Below, in pieces: positions 23,979-58,105 of a DNA stretch of 64,000 nucleotides (the first letter of the stretch is position 1; each line of letters begins with the position of its first letter). The DNA comes from Arenibacter antarcticus. GTDB lineage: Bacteria; Bacteroidota; Bacteroidia; Flavobacteriales; Flavobacteriaceae. Position numbers and translations under genes: made by a program. Location: positions 2,652,001 through 2,716,000 of the forward strand of contig NZ_CP166679.1 of NCBI RefSeq assembly GCF_041320605.1. The letters run 5' to 3'. The notes beneath the pieces are model-generated. The model did not search any database, was not told the DNA's origin, and saw only the letters and a program-made list of their open reading frames with translations.

Positions 23979-24992
23979 TTTTATGATATTTACCTCTGGT
24001 GTAATAGCGATGTTGAATTTATCATAAACCGCTTTCATTATATTGTGGGCTAAGGCAATAATCTGATGTCCTGTTGCGCTACCGTAGTTTACTAAAACTA
24101 AGGCTTGATGCTTGTGAATCCCAGCATCCCCAAATCTTTTTCCCTTAAAACCACATTGTTCTATCAGCCAACCTGCGGGCACTTTAAATTCCATTTCGGA
24201 TATTGTATAAAAAGGTGCTTCCGGATTGCTGCCTATAAATTTATCAAATTCTTTTTTCTTTAATACGGGATTTTTGAAAAAACTTCCGCTATTACCTAGT
24301 TCCTTTGGGTCTGGAAGTTTACTTTGCCTTATGGCAACTACGGCATTGGAGATGTCTTTGATGCCGGGATCTTGAATGCCCTTGTCCTTTAATTCCGAGG
24401 CAATAGCTCCGTAATCAATGTGTTTTCGGTGATTTTTTTTTGTGAGCTTTAGTTGGATGGAGGTGATAATGTATTTGCCCTTCCCTTCATTTTTAAAATA
24501 GGATTCCCTATACCCAAATTTACAGTCGGCCTTGCTAAATTGATGTAGCTTATGAGTAGCTATTTCCATCGCTTTGCAACTTACAAAAGTGTCCTTTAGT
24601 TCCACGCCATAGGCGCCAATGTTTTGTATCGGGGCAGTGCCAGAATTTCCGGGGATCAGGGACAGGTTTTCTAGGCCGCCATAATTGCGGTCCAAGGTCC
24701 ATAGTACCAGATCGTGCCAATTTTCACCGGCATTCACCTCAATGCAGATATGGTCCTCATCTTCCCAGACCGCTTCTATACCCTTAATGTTAATATAGAG
24801 TACAAAATAATTTAGGTCCTGGGTGATCAACATATTGCTGCCACCACCCAGAATAAAAAAATCGGGATATCCCTTTAGAGCCAGTGCCTCCGTTAGGTCG
24901 GCAACAGACTGGATCTCGGAAAAGTATGTTGCTTTCGCGTCAATTCCGAAAGTATTATAATTTTTTAGAGATGTGTCTTTCTCGATGGTCAT
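23976..24992 (-). CDS. murB: UDP-N-acetylenolpyruvoylglucosamine reductase
   Basis: A 338-residue FAD enzyme that completes UDP-N-acetylmuramic acid synthesis by NADPH-dependent reduction. FAD-binding features are ILGGGSNMLIT and IPGNSGTAPIQNIGAYGVELKD. The catalytic serine lies in LGNSGSFFKNP, and the C-terminal glutamate is probably that of TPEVN. The type I E. coli-like length (about 340) is matched. It overlaps the upstream aminotransferase by one base (TAATG), so the two are translationally coupled. Confidence 0.95.
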   Translation of the reverse strand: MTIEKDTSLKNYNTFGIDAKATYFSEIQSVADLTEALALKGYPDFFILGGGSNMLITQDLNYFVLYINIKGIEAVWEDEDHICIEVNAGENWHDLVLWTLDRNYGGLENLSLIPGNSGTAPIQNIGAYGVELKDTFVSCKAMEIATHKLHQFSKADCKFGYRESYFKNEGKGKYIITSIQLKLTKKNHRKHIDYGAIASELKDKGIQDPGIKDISNAVVAIRQSKLPDPKELGNSGSFFKNPVLKKKEFDKFIGSNPEAPFYTISEMEFKVPAGWLIEQCGFKGKRFGDAGIHKHQALVLVNYGSATGHQIIALAHNIMKAVYDKFNIAITPEVNIIK

Positions 24993-32394: not shown

Positions 32395-33156
32395 ATGTCA
32401 AAAATACCACACAGTTATGCGTTTTTAGATCTTTCGGATTACGGTAGACCAGTAGCTAGGATAATTGCTGTCCGACTTAAGGATACCACTATTACTCCGC
32501 TTCATGTTACGTTCTTATTTATTGTCTCCGGTTTATTAGCGATAGGTTGTATCCTGAAAGGGTATTATTTGGCAGCTACTTTTTTTTTGATATTAAAATC
32601 GACTTTGGATGCCGCCGACGGTGAATTGGCAAGAGTAAAACAAACTCCTTCCTATACGGGGCGATATTCTGATTCTATAGCCGATATCGTATTGAATTTC
32701 ATGATTTTTATCGTGTTAGGACACATTACAGATACTAGTATTATCTGGACAATGCTGGCATTTTTTGGAATGCAATTGCAGGGCACCTTGTATAATTATT
32801 ACTATGTAATATTAAGAAATAGACACAATGGAGATACTACCAGTAGAATATTTGAAACTGGGAAGCCAATAGCCATGGCGGGAGAGCGCCAAAGAGATGT
32901 AGATTTGCTTTTTGGATGCTATAAAGTGTTATATGGGGGGTTTGACCGAATTATTTATTACCTGGATCGTAGCGCATCAGTTAAAGGTCGACTTCCTAGT
33001 TGGTTAATGACTGCAGTGTCTACCTTTGGCCTTGGTTTTCAGTTGTTGGTCATCAGCATTATGCTGGTAGTCGGTTGGGCGAACGCTATAATTCCTTTTT
33101 TTATTTTCTTCTCTGTATTTATCTTTTTGTTTATCGGAATACGGAAATCATTATAG
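32395..33156 (+). CDS. CDP-alcohol phosphatidyltransferase family membrane protein
   Basis: A 253-residue integral membrane enzyme. The CDP-alcohol transferase motif D-x2-D-G-x2-A-R-x8-G-x3-D-x3-D is intact (DAADGELAR, then GRYSDSIAD), with hydrophobic helices on both sides. It would transfer a phosphatidyl or related group from a CDP-linked donor to an alcohol. The acceptor is unknown. The classical pssA and pgsA are shorter and have different flanks, so this is a separate family member. Its location within 6 kb of cdsA and psd is of interest for lipid metabolism. Confidence 0.88.
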   Translation: MSKIPHSYAFLDLSDYGRPVARIIAVRLKDTTITPLHVTFLFIVSGLLAIGCILKGYYLAATFFLILKSTLDAADGELARVKQTPSYTGRYSDSIADIVLNFMIFIVLGHITDTSIIWTMLAFFGMQLQGTLYNYYYVILRNRHNGDTTSRIFETGKPIAMAGERQRDVDLLFGCYKVLYGGFDRIIYYLDRSASVKGRLPSWLMTAVSTFGLGFQLLVISIMLVVGWANAIIPFFIFFSVFIFLFIGIRKSL

Positions 33157-39482: not shown

Positions 39483-40094
39483 CTACAAGTCTTCCAGAAG
39501 TAAAAGATAAAGATTTTTAGAACTACTTCCGTAAGTTAAGAAATCATTGGAGTTTTCGTCGGTGGGCAAGAAATGTTTTATGGTGGTGATGTTGGCGGGA
39601 ATATGGTTTTTATACTTCTTCTTAATCGTTTTTAGTCCCTCCCCAATAGATTCTACTAATTGACTCGTAGTTGCAAAGACAATTAAGTTTGAGGGGAGTT
39701 CGTGCAATTTTCTTTCATTTAATTGATTGGAACAAACTAGAATAGAGCCATTTTGAGCAATTAGATGTTCGCAGGTGGTGAAAAAGATCTGACTCATGCT
39801 GGGCTGATCCGTAAAACTTACGTCTTGCTTGGAGAATTTATCCTCCAAGCGTTTGTCCATGGAAAAAAATGTCTGGTCCTGCCATTGATTTTCAATGATG
39901 ATTTTGTCTAAGTTACTATAGACCTCCTCAATGGAATCACAGTACAGGAATTTGCCCCCATTACGTTTAAAATTAATGGTAAACATTTCATCCGCTGGGA
40001 TTTTCAGGTCGGGCATATGTTGCCCCCTAGTCTCCACTATTTCTTTAGAAACTTTTTTTTTACCTCCCCCAAAAATCTTATCAAACAATCCCAT
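39483..40094 (-). CDS. LUD domain (LutC/YkgG-like) protein
   Basis: A 203-residue soluble protein of the LutC/YkgG type. The N-terminus is lysine-rich (MGLFDKIFGGGKKKVSKE). The LUD-type core includes SIEEVYSNLDKIIIENQ, FFTTCEHLIAQNGSILVCSNQ and PSNLIVFATTSQLVESIGEG. In Bacteroidetes this gene sits between ftsH and cdsA, as here. Its function at that position is unknown and may differ from lactate oxidation, because lutA and lutB homologues are not nearby. Confidence 0.85.
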   Translation of the reverse strand: MGLFDKIFGGGKKKVSKEIVETRGQHMPDLKIPADEMFTINFKRNGGKFLYCDSIEEVYSNLDKIIIENQWQDQTFFSMDKRLEDKFSKQDVSFTDQPSMSQIFFTTCEHLIAQNGSILVCSNQLNERKLHELPSNLIVFATTSQLVESIGEGLKTIKKKYKNHIPANITTIKHFLPTDENSNDFLTYGSSSKNLYLLLLEDL

Positions 40095-54546: not shown

Positions 54547-54593
54547 TGAGATAACCGATTGTTGGACCCAGCAATTCTAAAGAAAATATAGCT

Positions 54594-56060
54594 TTGAAAA
54601 TTAAAAAGGTATTAGTTGCAAATAGGGGAGAGATCGCTATACGTATTTTTAGGGCATGTGTAGAGATTGGGATTAAAACAGTTGGGGTGTATACTTATGA
54701 AGACCGTTATTCCCTACATCGATATAAAGCAGATGAAAGTTACCAGATTGGGGGCGATAACGAACCTTTAAAGCCTTATTTGGATATGGATGCCTTGATT
54801 AAGGTCGCCAAGGAAAATGAGGTGGACGCCATTCATCCAGGATATGGATTCTTATCTGAAAATGCCACTTTCGCACAAAAATGTGAGGACAACGGAATTA
54901 TTTTTGTCGGTCCCAAAGTCTCGGTATTAAAAGCTCTTGGTGATAAGATTACGGCCAAGGAAGTTGCTGTGGCCAATAATATTCCCATCATAAAAAGTAG
55001 TGATAGGGATTTGTCGGATATTGAGGTGGCACTTTCTGAAGCGGAACAAATAGGTTATCCCTTAATGTTAAAGGCTGCTTCTGGTGGTGGAGGACGTGGT
55101 ATGCGCGTAATCCGAACCGAGGAAGAGCTTAGAAAAGGATTTCCAGAAGCTAAACGGGAATCTTTAAATGCCTTTGGTGACGATACGGTATTCCTGGAGA
55201 AATTTGTGGAGAATCCCAAACATATAGAGATTCAAATCGTTGCGGATACCCATGGCAATATGGTGCATTTGTACGAGAGGGATTGTTCTGTACAAAGAAG
55301 ATATCAAAAGGTAATAGAATTTGCCCCATCCATAGGATTGCCACAGGATACCAAGGATAATTTGTATAAATATGCCATTGATATCTGCAAAGCAGTAGAC
55401 TACAATAATATAGGAACGGTGGAATTTTTGGTAGATGACGATGGCAGTATCTACTTTATTGAGGTAAACCCAAGGATACAGGTAGAGCATACGGTAACGG
55501 AAATGATTACCAATATAGACTTGGTTAAGGCCCAATTGTTTATTGCAGGCGGCTACAGATTATCGGATACCCAGATAAAAATACAAGATCAGGCCTCGAT
55601 CGTAGTCACGGGTTATGCCCTGCAATGTAGGATTACTACCGAAGATCCCGCTAACGATTTTAAACCAGATTATGGAGTGGTAACTACCTACCGTAGTGCT
55701 TCAGGTCTGGGAATCCGATTGGATGCCGGTAGTATCTATCAAGGGGTGGCAATTTCCCCATTTTTCGATTCCATGTTGGTAAAGGTGTCTGCCTTGAGTA
55801 GGACTTTGGATGGGTCTTGTCGTAAAATGAGAAGGGCCTTGGCTGAATTTCGTATCAGGGGGGTCAAGACCAATATGGCGTTTCTGGACAATATCTTAAA
55901 ACACCCCACTTTTAGAGAGGGTAAGGTAACGGTAAACTTTATTAATAACGAACCAGAGCTATTCCAATTTGTGGAGCCAAGGAATAGGGCCAATAAGTTA
56001 GTGGAATTCTTGGGCGAGGTTATTGTAAATGGGAATCCTGATGTAAAAAAAAATGGATAA
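54594..56060 (+). CDS. pyc: Pyruvate carboxylase, biotin carboxylase part (5' segment of a split gene)
   Basis: A 488-residue segment starting at a TTG (KIKKVLVANRGEIAIRIF). It contains a biotin-carboxylase N-domain, the ATP-grasp region (LKAASGGGGRGMRVI, EKFVENPKHIEIQIVAD, IYFIEVNPRIQVEHTVTE) and the C-domain (GYALQCRITTEDP). It ends with VNGNPDVKKNG and a stop. In single-chain pyruvate carboxylases this point continues directly into a linker and the carboxyltransferase domain. Here the frame breaks in nine adenines (56045-56053). Deleting one A restores VKK-MDKSHVFSKPKIP and a continuous chain of about 1150 residues, the normal enzyme length. The enzyme carboxylates pyruvate to oxaloacetate for anaplerosis and gluconeogenesis. 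Confidence 0.92.
   Translation: MKIKKVLVANRGEIAIRIFRACVEIGIKTVGVYTYEDRYSLHRYKADESYQIGGDNEPLKPYLDMDALIKVAKENEVDAIHPGYGFLSENATFAQKCEDNGIIFVGPKVSVLKALGDKITAKEVAVANNIPIIKSSDRDLSDIEVALSEAEQIGYPLMLKAASGGGGRGMRVIRTEEELRKGFPEAKRESLNAFGDDTVFLEKFVENPKHIEIQIVADTHGNMVHLYERDCSVQRRYQKVIEFAPSIGLPQDTKDNLYKYAIDICKAVDYNNIGTVEFLVDDDGSIYFIEVNPRIQVEHTVTEMITNIDLVKAQLFIAGGYRLSDTQIKIQDQASIVVTGYALQCRITTEDPANDFKPDYGVVTTYRSASGLGIRLDAGSIYQGVAISPFFDSMLVKVSALSRTLDGSCRKMRRALAEFRIRGVKTNMAFLDNILKHPTFREGKVTVNFINNEPELFQFVEPRNRANKLVEFLGEVIVNGNPDVKKNG
56045..56053 (+). other. A9 homopolymer at the pyruvate carboxylase frame break
   Basis: Nine consecutive adenines lie at the junction between the two reading frames. The first frame ends seven bases after the run; the second starts with the ATG whose A is the ninth base of the run. 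Such a run can be a sequencing or replication slip site, or can allow transcriptional slippage. Confidence 0.9.
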
Positions 56061-58047
56061 GAGCCATGTGTTTTCCAAACCAAAAATTCCCACCTTCCCC
56101 ATTGTGGAGGAATACCCAAAGGGAACCAAGGATTTATTGACCGAATTAGGTCCCGACCAATTTTCCATGTGGCTAAAAAATGAGAAGAAGGTCCATTTCA
56201 CCGATACTACCATGCGTGATGCTCACCAAAGTTTATTGGCAACACGGATGAGGACGTTAGACATGTTAAAGGTAGCTGAGGGATATGCCAAAAACCATCC
56301 AGAAATATTTAGTATGGAAGTTTGGGGAGGGGCCACCTTTGATGTTTGCCTTCGATTCTTACAGGAAAATCCTTGGGAGCGATTGGAATTGTTGCGAAAA
56401 GCCATGCCCAATATATTAATGCAAATGTTGATCAGGGGCTCCAATGGGGTTGGCTATACCGCCTATCCAGATAATTTGATAGAGCGATTTGTTGAGGAAT
56501 CATGGAAATCTGGGGTAGATATTTTTAGGATTTTTGATTCCCTCAATTGGATGAAATCCATCGCGCCCTGCATAGAATATGTCAGAACCAAAACAGGAGG
56601 CCTGGCAGAAGGCTCACTTTGTTACACTGGTGATATATTAGATCCCACAAAATCGAAATACAATTTAAAGTATTATGTGCAATTGGCCAAGGATATTGAA
56701 AATGCTGGAGCCCATATTTTAGGGGTCAAGGATATGGCGGGATTGTTAAAGCCTTATGCGGCCTACGAATTAATATCGGCCTTAAAGTCCGAGATTAATA
56801 TCCCCATACATCTTCATACGCATGATACCTCCTCTACCCAGGCGGCTATGTACCTAAAGGCTATTGAGGCTGGGGTAGATGTTGTAGACGTGGCATTGGG
56901 CGGTATGTCTGGACTTACTTCCCAACCCAATTTTAATTCTGTTGTGGAAATGTTGCGTTTCCAAGAAAGAGAAAATAGTTTGAATACCGATAAATTGGCA
57001 GAATATTCCAACTATTGGGAAACCGTACGGAATTATTATTACACGTTTGAATCCGGATTAAAATCAGGGACTGGGGAAGTGTATAAGCACGAGATTCCTG
57101 GCGGACAATATTCTAACCTAAAGGGGCAGGCTATAGCTTTGGGCTTAGAGGATAAGTTTCCCGAAGTCACCAAAATGTACGGGGAGGTAAATCAACTTTT
57201 TGGAGATATTATAAAGGTAACCCCCAGTTCCAAGGTGGTAGGGGATATGGCCCAATATATGATTGCCAATAACCTTACTGTATCGGATATCTTGGAAAAC
57301 GGAGAATCTATTTCCTTTCCACAATCTGTAATTGGTTATTTTAAGGGCGATTTAGGTCAGCCGGAAGGAGGTTTTCCAAAAGAATTGCAAAAAATGGTGC
57401 TTAAAGATCAACAAGCCTTTACGGATAGACCAAATGCCCACTTGGAAGCTATTGATTTTGATAGGGAATTTGCGGACTTTAAAAGAAAATTTAACGCTGG
57501 AATGGGGCGTGAATTGCTGATAACCGATTTTCTTTCCTATAAGCTATATCCAAAAGTATTTACCGATGCCTACAACAACCATGTGAAGTATGGCAATGTT
57601 ATGAATATCCCTACCAAGAATTTCTTTTACGGGATGGAAGTGGGAGAGGAGATCATTGTGGAATTGGATCGGGGTAAGAATATTTTGGTCTCACTTATGT
57701 TACGAGGGGAACCGGACGATGCCGGAAATGTGAGTATCTACTTTAAGGTAAATGGACAATTGCGAAATGTAATGATTAAAGATAGATCTGTTAAAGTGAA
57801 TAAAGTAGAAAATGTTAAGGTGGATGCCGCTGATGTAAATCAGATTGGAGCCCCCTTACAAGGCCTGCTATCTAGCGTACTGGTAAAGAAAAATCAAGAA
57901 GTGAAAAAAAATCAGCCACTTTTCGTTATCGAAGCTATGAAAATGGAAACCACAGTAACCGCTACCCAGGAAGGGGTGGTAGATAGAATACAATTGAAGG
58001 GGGGCACTTTGGTAAATTCGGAGGACCTTGTGCTTGTATTAAAATGA
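56053..58047 (+). CDS. pyc: Pyruvate carboxylase, carboxyltransferase and biotin-carrier part (3' segment of a split gene)
   Basis: A 664-residue segment opening at the ATG that overlaps the previous stop by eight bases. The first 45 residues (SKPKIPTFPIVEEYPKGTKDLL, then WLKNEKKV) are the linker seen only in single-chain pyruvate carboxylases. The carboxyltransferase domain starts at FTDTTMRDAHQSLLATRMRT and includes MEVWGGATFDVCLRFL and HLHTHDTSSTQAAMYLKA. The C-terminal biotin domain has K630 in IEAMKMETT. Separate PycB proteins normally lack the linker, which supports a broken single chain over a true two-subunit enzyme. BirA (42.7 kb) would biotinylate K630. Confidence 0.92.
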   Translation: MDKSHVFSKPKIPTFPIVEEYPKGTKDLLTELGPDQFSMWLKNEKKVHFTDTTMRDAHQSLLATRMRTLDMLKVAEGYAKNHPEIFSMEVWGGATFDVCLRFLQENPWERLELLRKAMPNILMQMLIRGSNGVGYTAYPDNLIERFVEESWKSGVDIFRIFDSLNWMKSIAPCIEYVRTKTGGLAEGSLCYTGDILDPTKSKYNLKYYVQLAKDIENAGAHILGVKDMAGLLKPYAAYELISALKSEINIPIHLHTHDTSSTQAAMYLKAIEAGVDVVDVALGGMSGLTSQPNFNSVVEMLRFQERENSLNTDKLAEYSNYWETVRNYYYTFESGLKSGTGEVYKHEIPGGQYSNLKGQAIALGLEDKFPEVTKMYGEVNQLFGDIIKVTPSSKVVGDMAQYMIANNLTVSDILENGESISFPQSVIGYFKGDLGQPEGGFPKELQKMVLKDQQAFTDRPNAHLEAIDFDREFADFKRKFNAGMGRELLITDFLSYKLYPKVFTDAYNNHVKYGNVMNIPTKNFFYGMEVGEEIIVELDRGKNILVSLMLRGEPDDAGNVSIYFKVNGQLRNVMIKDRSVKVNKVENVKVDAADVNQIGAPLQGLLSSVLVKKNQEVKKNQPLFVIEAMKMETTVTATQEGVVDRIQLKGGTLVNSEDLVLVLK

Positions 58048-58079
58048 TAGTCCAATTACCCCTAACCGGATCATATAGA

Positions 58080-58087
58080 TAATTTTG
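58080..58087 (+). promoter_or_regulatory. Predicted -7 box of the UDG-family gene
   Basis: TAATTTTG matches TAnnTTTG and lies 18 bases before the TTG start at 58106. The box sits in the short gap after pyruvate carboxylase. Confidence 0.4.
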
Positions 58088-58105
58088 TAAAATTCAATTA
58101 TTCTT

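Follow-up and report, generated by a model that had tools for sequence, protein, structure and literature searches.

The stretch analysed here, referred to as the window, comprises 64,000 nucleotides of Arenibacter antarcticus (positions 2,652,001 to 2,716,000 of contig NZ_CP166679.1) and belongs to a genome assembled as a single contig of 4,694,007 bases. It raises the question of why a gene for pyruvate carboxylase should lie in two overlapping reading frames, parted at a run of nine adenines (A9). A preliminary description had offered four causes: a sequencing error in the homopolymer, a true inactivating mutation, transcriptional slippage on the run, and a new two-subunit enzyme made through stop/start overlap. 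In our analysis the first two were retained, the mutation as a recent one; slippage kept a place mainly as a partial rescue of a real mutation, and the two-subunit form found little support. The split very probably reflects a one-base change in poly(A) length in an ordinary single-chain pyruvate carboxylase gene, arising either as an error in the assembly consensus or as a very recent mutation. Between these two the odds were similar, by judgement rather than computation. The features concerned are listed below, with positions counted within the window.

54594..56060, forward strand: frame 1, the biotin carboxylase half of pyruvate carboxylase (488 amino acids, TTG start, C-terminal end PDVKKNG followed by the stop)
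56045..56053, forward strand: A9 run, the site of the frame break (eight adenines, A8, and in frame in A. certesii)
56053..58047, forward strand: frame 2, the carboxyltransferase, PYC_OADA and biotin carrier half (664 amino acids, ATG start)
56058..56060, forward strand: TAA terminating frame 1, within frame 2, as read from the sequence

A single-chain enzyme in two frames

The break was located at the seam where the biotin-carboxylase part of the enzyme meets the carboxyltransferase part. The frame 1 codons at the seam are GTA AAA AAA AAT GGA TAA, and the last base of the TAA lies 7 bases past A9. The ATG of frame 2 (56053-56055) takes its A from the last base of the run, its protein begins with MDKSHVFSK, and the two frames overlap by 8 bases (56053-56060). 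The run, the stop behind it and the ATG on its last A agreed with the preliminary description, and the computed masses of the two halves (54.5 and 74.7 kDa) were near the approximately 53 and 73 kDa estimated there.

Matches to Pfam and NCBIfam assigned three biotin-carboxylase domains to frame 1, and HMGL-like carboxyltransferase, PYC_OADA and biotin-carrier domains to frame 2, with the biotin motif AMKM at residue 628 of the latter. The biotin carboxylase (BC), carboxyltransferase (CT), PYC_OADA and biotin carrier domains of single-chain pyruvate carboxylase were thereby all present, in order. Against PRK12999, a single-chain model of 1147 positions, frame 1 aligned to positions 4-488 and frame 2 to 492-1146. 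Judged from these sequence matches, the two frames together make up one single-chain pyruvate carboxylase, in a genome of the Arenibacter group. A search of this genome with the second half found no second pyruvate carboxylase copy; besides the gene itself, it returned one carrier-like match. The TTG start of frame 1 was kept in 11 of the 12 congener loci read, with GTG in the twelfth, a conserved non-ATG start provided that the start was placed rightly.

Distribution of the break among relatives

Searches with the second half covered 60 relatives, 17 of them in the same genus, and titled genome records, from which the best 80 of 574 loci were used. Carboxylase frames of full length, from 1150 to 1173 codons, were present in 26 of the 60 relatives, including 16 of the 17 congeners, and the seventeenth congener (G010) gave only a carrier-like match. 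The 26 loci of the relatives and the 80 from the titled records made up 106 other loci, among which 14 pairs represented the same contig twice, leaving 92 distinct proteins; the loci of the genome itself (L001-L003) and distant partial homologues (L031-L033, 33-37% identity) had been left out before this count. The seam was read through in one continuous frame, with no stop, in 106/106 of these loci and none carried a frame-breaking run there, compared with the break at 56045-56053 in the A. antarcticus assembly. The split is accordingly private to this assembly among the relatives examined, which were of other species, and titled records very near the A. antarcticus genome may be missing from the set. 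The preliminary description would have taken it as support for a natural split if relatives kept the A9 and made separate proteins; in the comparison run here, none of the relatives examined did. Of the 7,999 hits scored in a protein collection, under a length filter that admits the 664-amino-acid form, no protein among the 120 matches listed was shorter than 905 amino acids.

Within the best 80 of 574 loci, the second half was closest to A. certesii (92%) and A. latericius (91%). A. certesii (L005, identical with L034) has a single, continuous open frame of 1154 codons with A8 at the seam site, and its adjoining segments match the two halves at identities of 94.9% and 92.3%. Together with the single broken open reading frame (ORF) among 175 described below, this bore out the split gene of the preliminary description as more than a product of chance. 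An in-frame A8 at the seam was also observed in A. nanhaiticus (L020/L047) and Tenacibaculum haliotis (L083), and the Val-Lys-Lys codons at the seam repeatedly give long A runs.

Selection on the two halves

The ratio of nonsynonymous to synonymous substitution rates (dN/dS) relative to A. certesii was 0.030 for the first half and 0.032 for the second, compared to 0.024 and 0.045 in the control pair A. certesii - A. latericius, in a test made blunt by a dS of about 1, near saturation. Private changes were counted with 12 of the congeners' 16 loci, at sites invariant across the other 11. A. antarcticus had 0 such changes in the first half and 8 in the second, vs. 4 and 3 in A. certesii (totals 8 vs. 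7); with A. latericius as comparator, the 0 and 8 of A. antarcticus stood against 6 and 7 (totals 8 vs. 13). At least 7 of the 8 private residues occur in other family members, and the eighth, residue 39, was compared with the five commonest residues at its site. Damage elsewhere in the gene was considered and rejected, since no stop interrupts either half before its own end and most of the private residues recur in other family members. Both halves look constrained, pointing to strong past purifying selection, and their sequences suggest no decay in either. Given this lack of decay, the break, if real, has to be either young or tolerated.

Assembly error or recent mutation

To judge the assembly, ORFs of at least 100 amino acids from a relative (G007) were compared with 484 kb of the A. 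antarcticus genome (G000). ORFs overlapping a longer ORF by at least 35% were dropped before counting, which left 324 G007 ORFs; 175 of these were matched (60,741 amino acids), and the one frame break among them was that in pyruvate carboxylase. The exact 95% interval for 1 broken ORF in 175 is 0.01-3.1%, and scaled to an assumed total of approximately 4,000 genes it permits about one to more than 100 breaks genome-wide. The low count argues against a flood of errors, yet allows a few. The reverse direction yielded 2 candidates among 176 matched of 362 ORFs, and one of these was rejected as a break, being really an upstream extension before the start codon. A possible N-terminal frame difference, away from any long homopolymer, was observed in a 1180-codon ORF (L148-L149, G000:C1:948702-952241) relative to G007 contig C5; a paralogue, or an error in the relative's draft sequence, could account for it. 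The candidate pair E 149307 was judged to be an antisense reading, and candidates A 112830 and A 115742 were antisense to longer ORFs; C 75431 (G001 against G007) was a further candidate.

Runs of at least eight A or T numbered 41 in 224 kb. Sixteen were within aligned coding sequence, four of them nine long, and the A9 at the seam was among the longest; a run of nine is in itself nothing unusual. A frame break was found at the seam run only; the 15 other coding runs included one in the second half of the same gene (57904-57911). No break was found at the three other nine-base runs in aligned coding sequence, all of T (window 24433-24441, 32580-32588 and 40053-40061), which indicates that runs of this length are tolerated in the coding sequence of A. 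antarcticus.

An error in the consensus, in which case the chromosome would carry an in-frame tract and the strain would make a normal single-chain enzyme, comes only slightly short of an even chance. It would account for a break seen in one assembly only and for the unbroken, constrained remainder of the gene, and homopolymers are the usual place of long-read indels (PMC12007338, PMC8812927). It is harder to reconcile with the just 1 broken ORF in 175, with the three intact nine-base coding runs, with an insertion in place of a deletion, and with the circumstance that the gene affected happens to be one absent from a congener (G010).

That absence bears on the second possibility, a real and recent replication-slippage mutation inactivating or attenuating a gene that is partly redundant with phosphoenolpyruvate (PEP) carboxylase, to which we attached nearly the same, tentative probability. 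PEP carboxylase is the other main route to oxaloacetate, and it was found in the A. antarcticus genome and in 17/17 congeners. On contig C13 of G010 (L165/L166) the flanks of the locus are kept in order and the sequence corresponding to window 54549-58100, the carboxylase included, is gone; the gap between the flanks is about 220 bases, has no N, and no carboxylase remnant was found in it. This is apparently a separate loss within the genus, in which pyruvate carboxylase seems to have been dispensable at least once. The presence of PEP carboxylase and the loss in G010 imply that a real loss would be tolerable, and this dispensability lifted a real mutation to roughly the same odds as an error. 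A mutation is also in keeping with the A8 of A. certesii, one step from A9, and with the few breaks in the stretches compared. Conversely, neither half has accumulated damage, so that the mutation would have to be young; it was seen in one strain only, and in a genome where no second pyruvate carboxylase copy was found.

If the A9 is real, most transcripts would lead to the biotin-carboxylase half alone, and a minority may give the full chain via RNA polymerase slippage on the run. The second half could possibly be made by re-initiation at the overlapping ATG, and PEP carboxylase could supply oxaloacetate.

Several points weigh against a one-base length change of either origin as the whole explanation. 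Error and mutation are not separable from the assembly sequence alone, and A. antarcticus entered the comparison with a single genome. The 15 unbroken runs out of 16 speak somewhat against a general homopolymer error problem, and A9 is an insertion relative to A. certesii, whereas for MinION assemblies one paper describes deletions as prominent after long homopolymers (PMC12007338). Besides the bluntness of dN/dS near saturation, all 8 private changes are in the second half (8 vs. 3 in A. certesii, two-sided binomial P = 0.23), and strong constraint might also reflect a split gene that still works.

Slippage, re-initiation and a two-subunit form

A working split gene could be envisaged in several ways. 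With a real A9, slippage and re-initiation acting together might provide full-length enzyme plus assembling halves, en route to loss (compare G010) or to a two-chain form, but we consider this improbable.

Transcriptional slippage could by itself have kept a real A9 functional, the mixed mRNA containing a useful full-length share that would allow long-term tolerance; we regard this as quite improbable. Transcript-length variation on nine A has been documented in bacteria (PMC1088944, PMC5009743, PMC3017870). Slippage on nine A leaves 50% of the T. thermophilus dnaX product short (PMC1088944), for some frameshifted genes of endosymbionts 12-50% of the transcripts have a corrected frame (PMC5009743), and six genomic A9/T9 breaks of single-ORF homologues have been proposed as rescued (PMC1088944). 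The constraint on both halves would be consistent with such rescue. Programmed -1 ribosomal frameshifting at A AAA AAA was rejected, because frame 2 is +1 of frame 1 (ATG at 56053, frame 1 codon at 56052) and a -1 shift would lead into the wrong frame. A stable RNA signal at the seam was likewise rejected, the fold of 81 bases being no better than shuffles (z -0.17).

Re-initiation at the internal ATG was assessed with a start-context score derived from 295 starts that were picked mechanically in 464 kb, and tested against 1,864 internal in-frame ATGs. The A-rich leader of this ATG scored 1.58, below the median start (3.23), exceeding 29% of starts and 93% of internal ATGs. In Flavobacterium johnsoniae, initiation is promoted by A at -3 and -6 (PMC6847099), the 8-base overlap would suit termination-reinitiation, and the seam adjoins the BC-CT linker, which closes the alpha chain in two-subunit enzymes (PMC5059739). 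A new two-subunit pyruvate carboxylase produced in this manner is nonetheless highly improbable: the genes are separate in 0/106 of the relatives' loci, no half-length protein was among the 120 matches listed, the HGE motif of the BT-like linker was not found in either half, the best matches among solved structures are to single-chain enzymes (589 and 700 bits for the two halves, vs. 369 and 284 for the two-subunit 5ks8), and RNA structure at the seam did not go beyond shuffles. A fixed, selected two-subunit design is thus unlikely, although the plausible A-rich context of its ATG speaks for the form listed in the preliminary description.

Significance and comparison with known systems

The gene and its change are most likely ordinary, with no new type of enzyme involved. 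For annotation, automatic pipelines are expected to label the gene as a pseudogene or as two proteins, and in metabolic models derived from the genome pyruvate carboxylase might be omitted or divided by mistake. A real mutation would mark a young step in losing an anaplerotic enzyme backed by PEP carboxylase, a process of which G010 may show the end point, and it would provide an easy natural test of frame rescue by a Bacteroidota RNA polymerase slipping on A9. A literature search on Arenibacter, complete genome and frameshift, the only one made on the organism, gave nothing on this gene among the matches listed.

The known system closest to the locus is single-chain pyruvate carboxylase (PRK12999/TIGR01235; structures such as 4qsk, 3bg5 and 3ho8), to which both halves align with the same domain order and with AMKM present, and the relatives have proteins of 1150 amino acids. 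The difference is that the A. antarcticus tract is one base longer than that of A. certesii and the frame is broken at the seam. Residual homopolymer errors of long-read assemblies (PMC12007338, PMC8812927) resemble it as a lone one-base homopolymer indel in a conserved gene of one assembly; in contrast to such cases, few other breaks were found in the A. antarcticus stretches. Frameshifts in Blochmannia and Buchnera, with possible slippage rescue (PMC3017870, PMC1088944), share the single-base indel, the long A run and the intact, constrained gene, but the genome of A. antarcticus measures 4.7 Mb, breaks were few in the compared stretches, and the one in pyruvate carboxylase is not conserved. 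The two-subunit type (Methylobacillus flagellatus, 5ks8; PMC5059739), an alpha2-beta4 holoenzyme, is alike in that biotin carboxylase and carboxyltransferase-carrier are encoded apart. That source describes it for Proteobacteria and Aquificae, with a different, BT-like linker domain and HGE, whereas A. antarcticus has a sequence of the single-chain type and a split that the relatives examined do not share.
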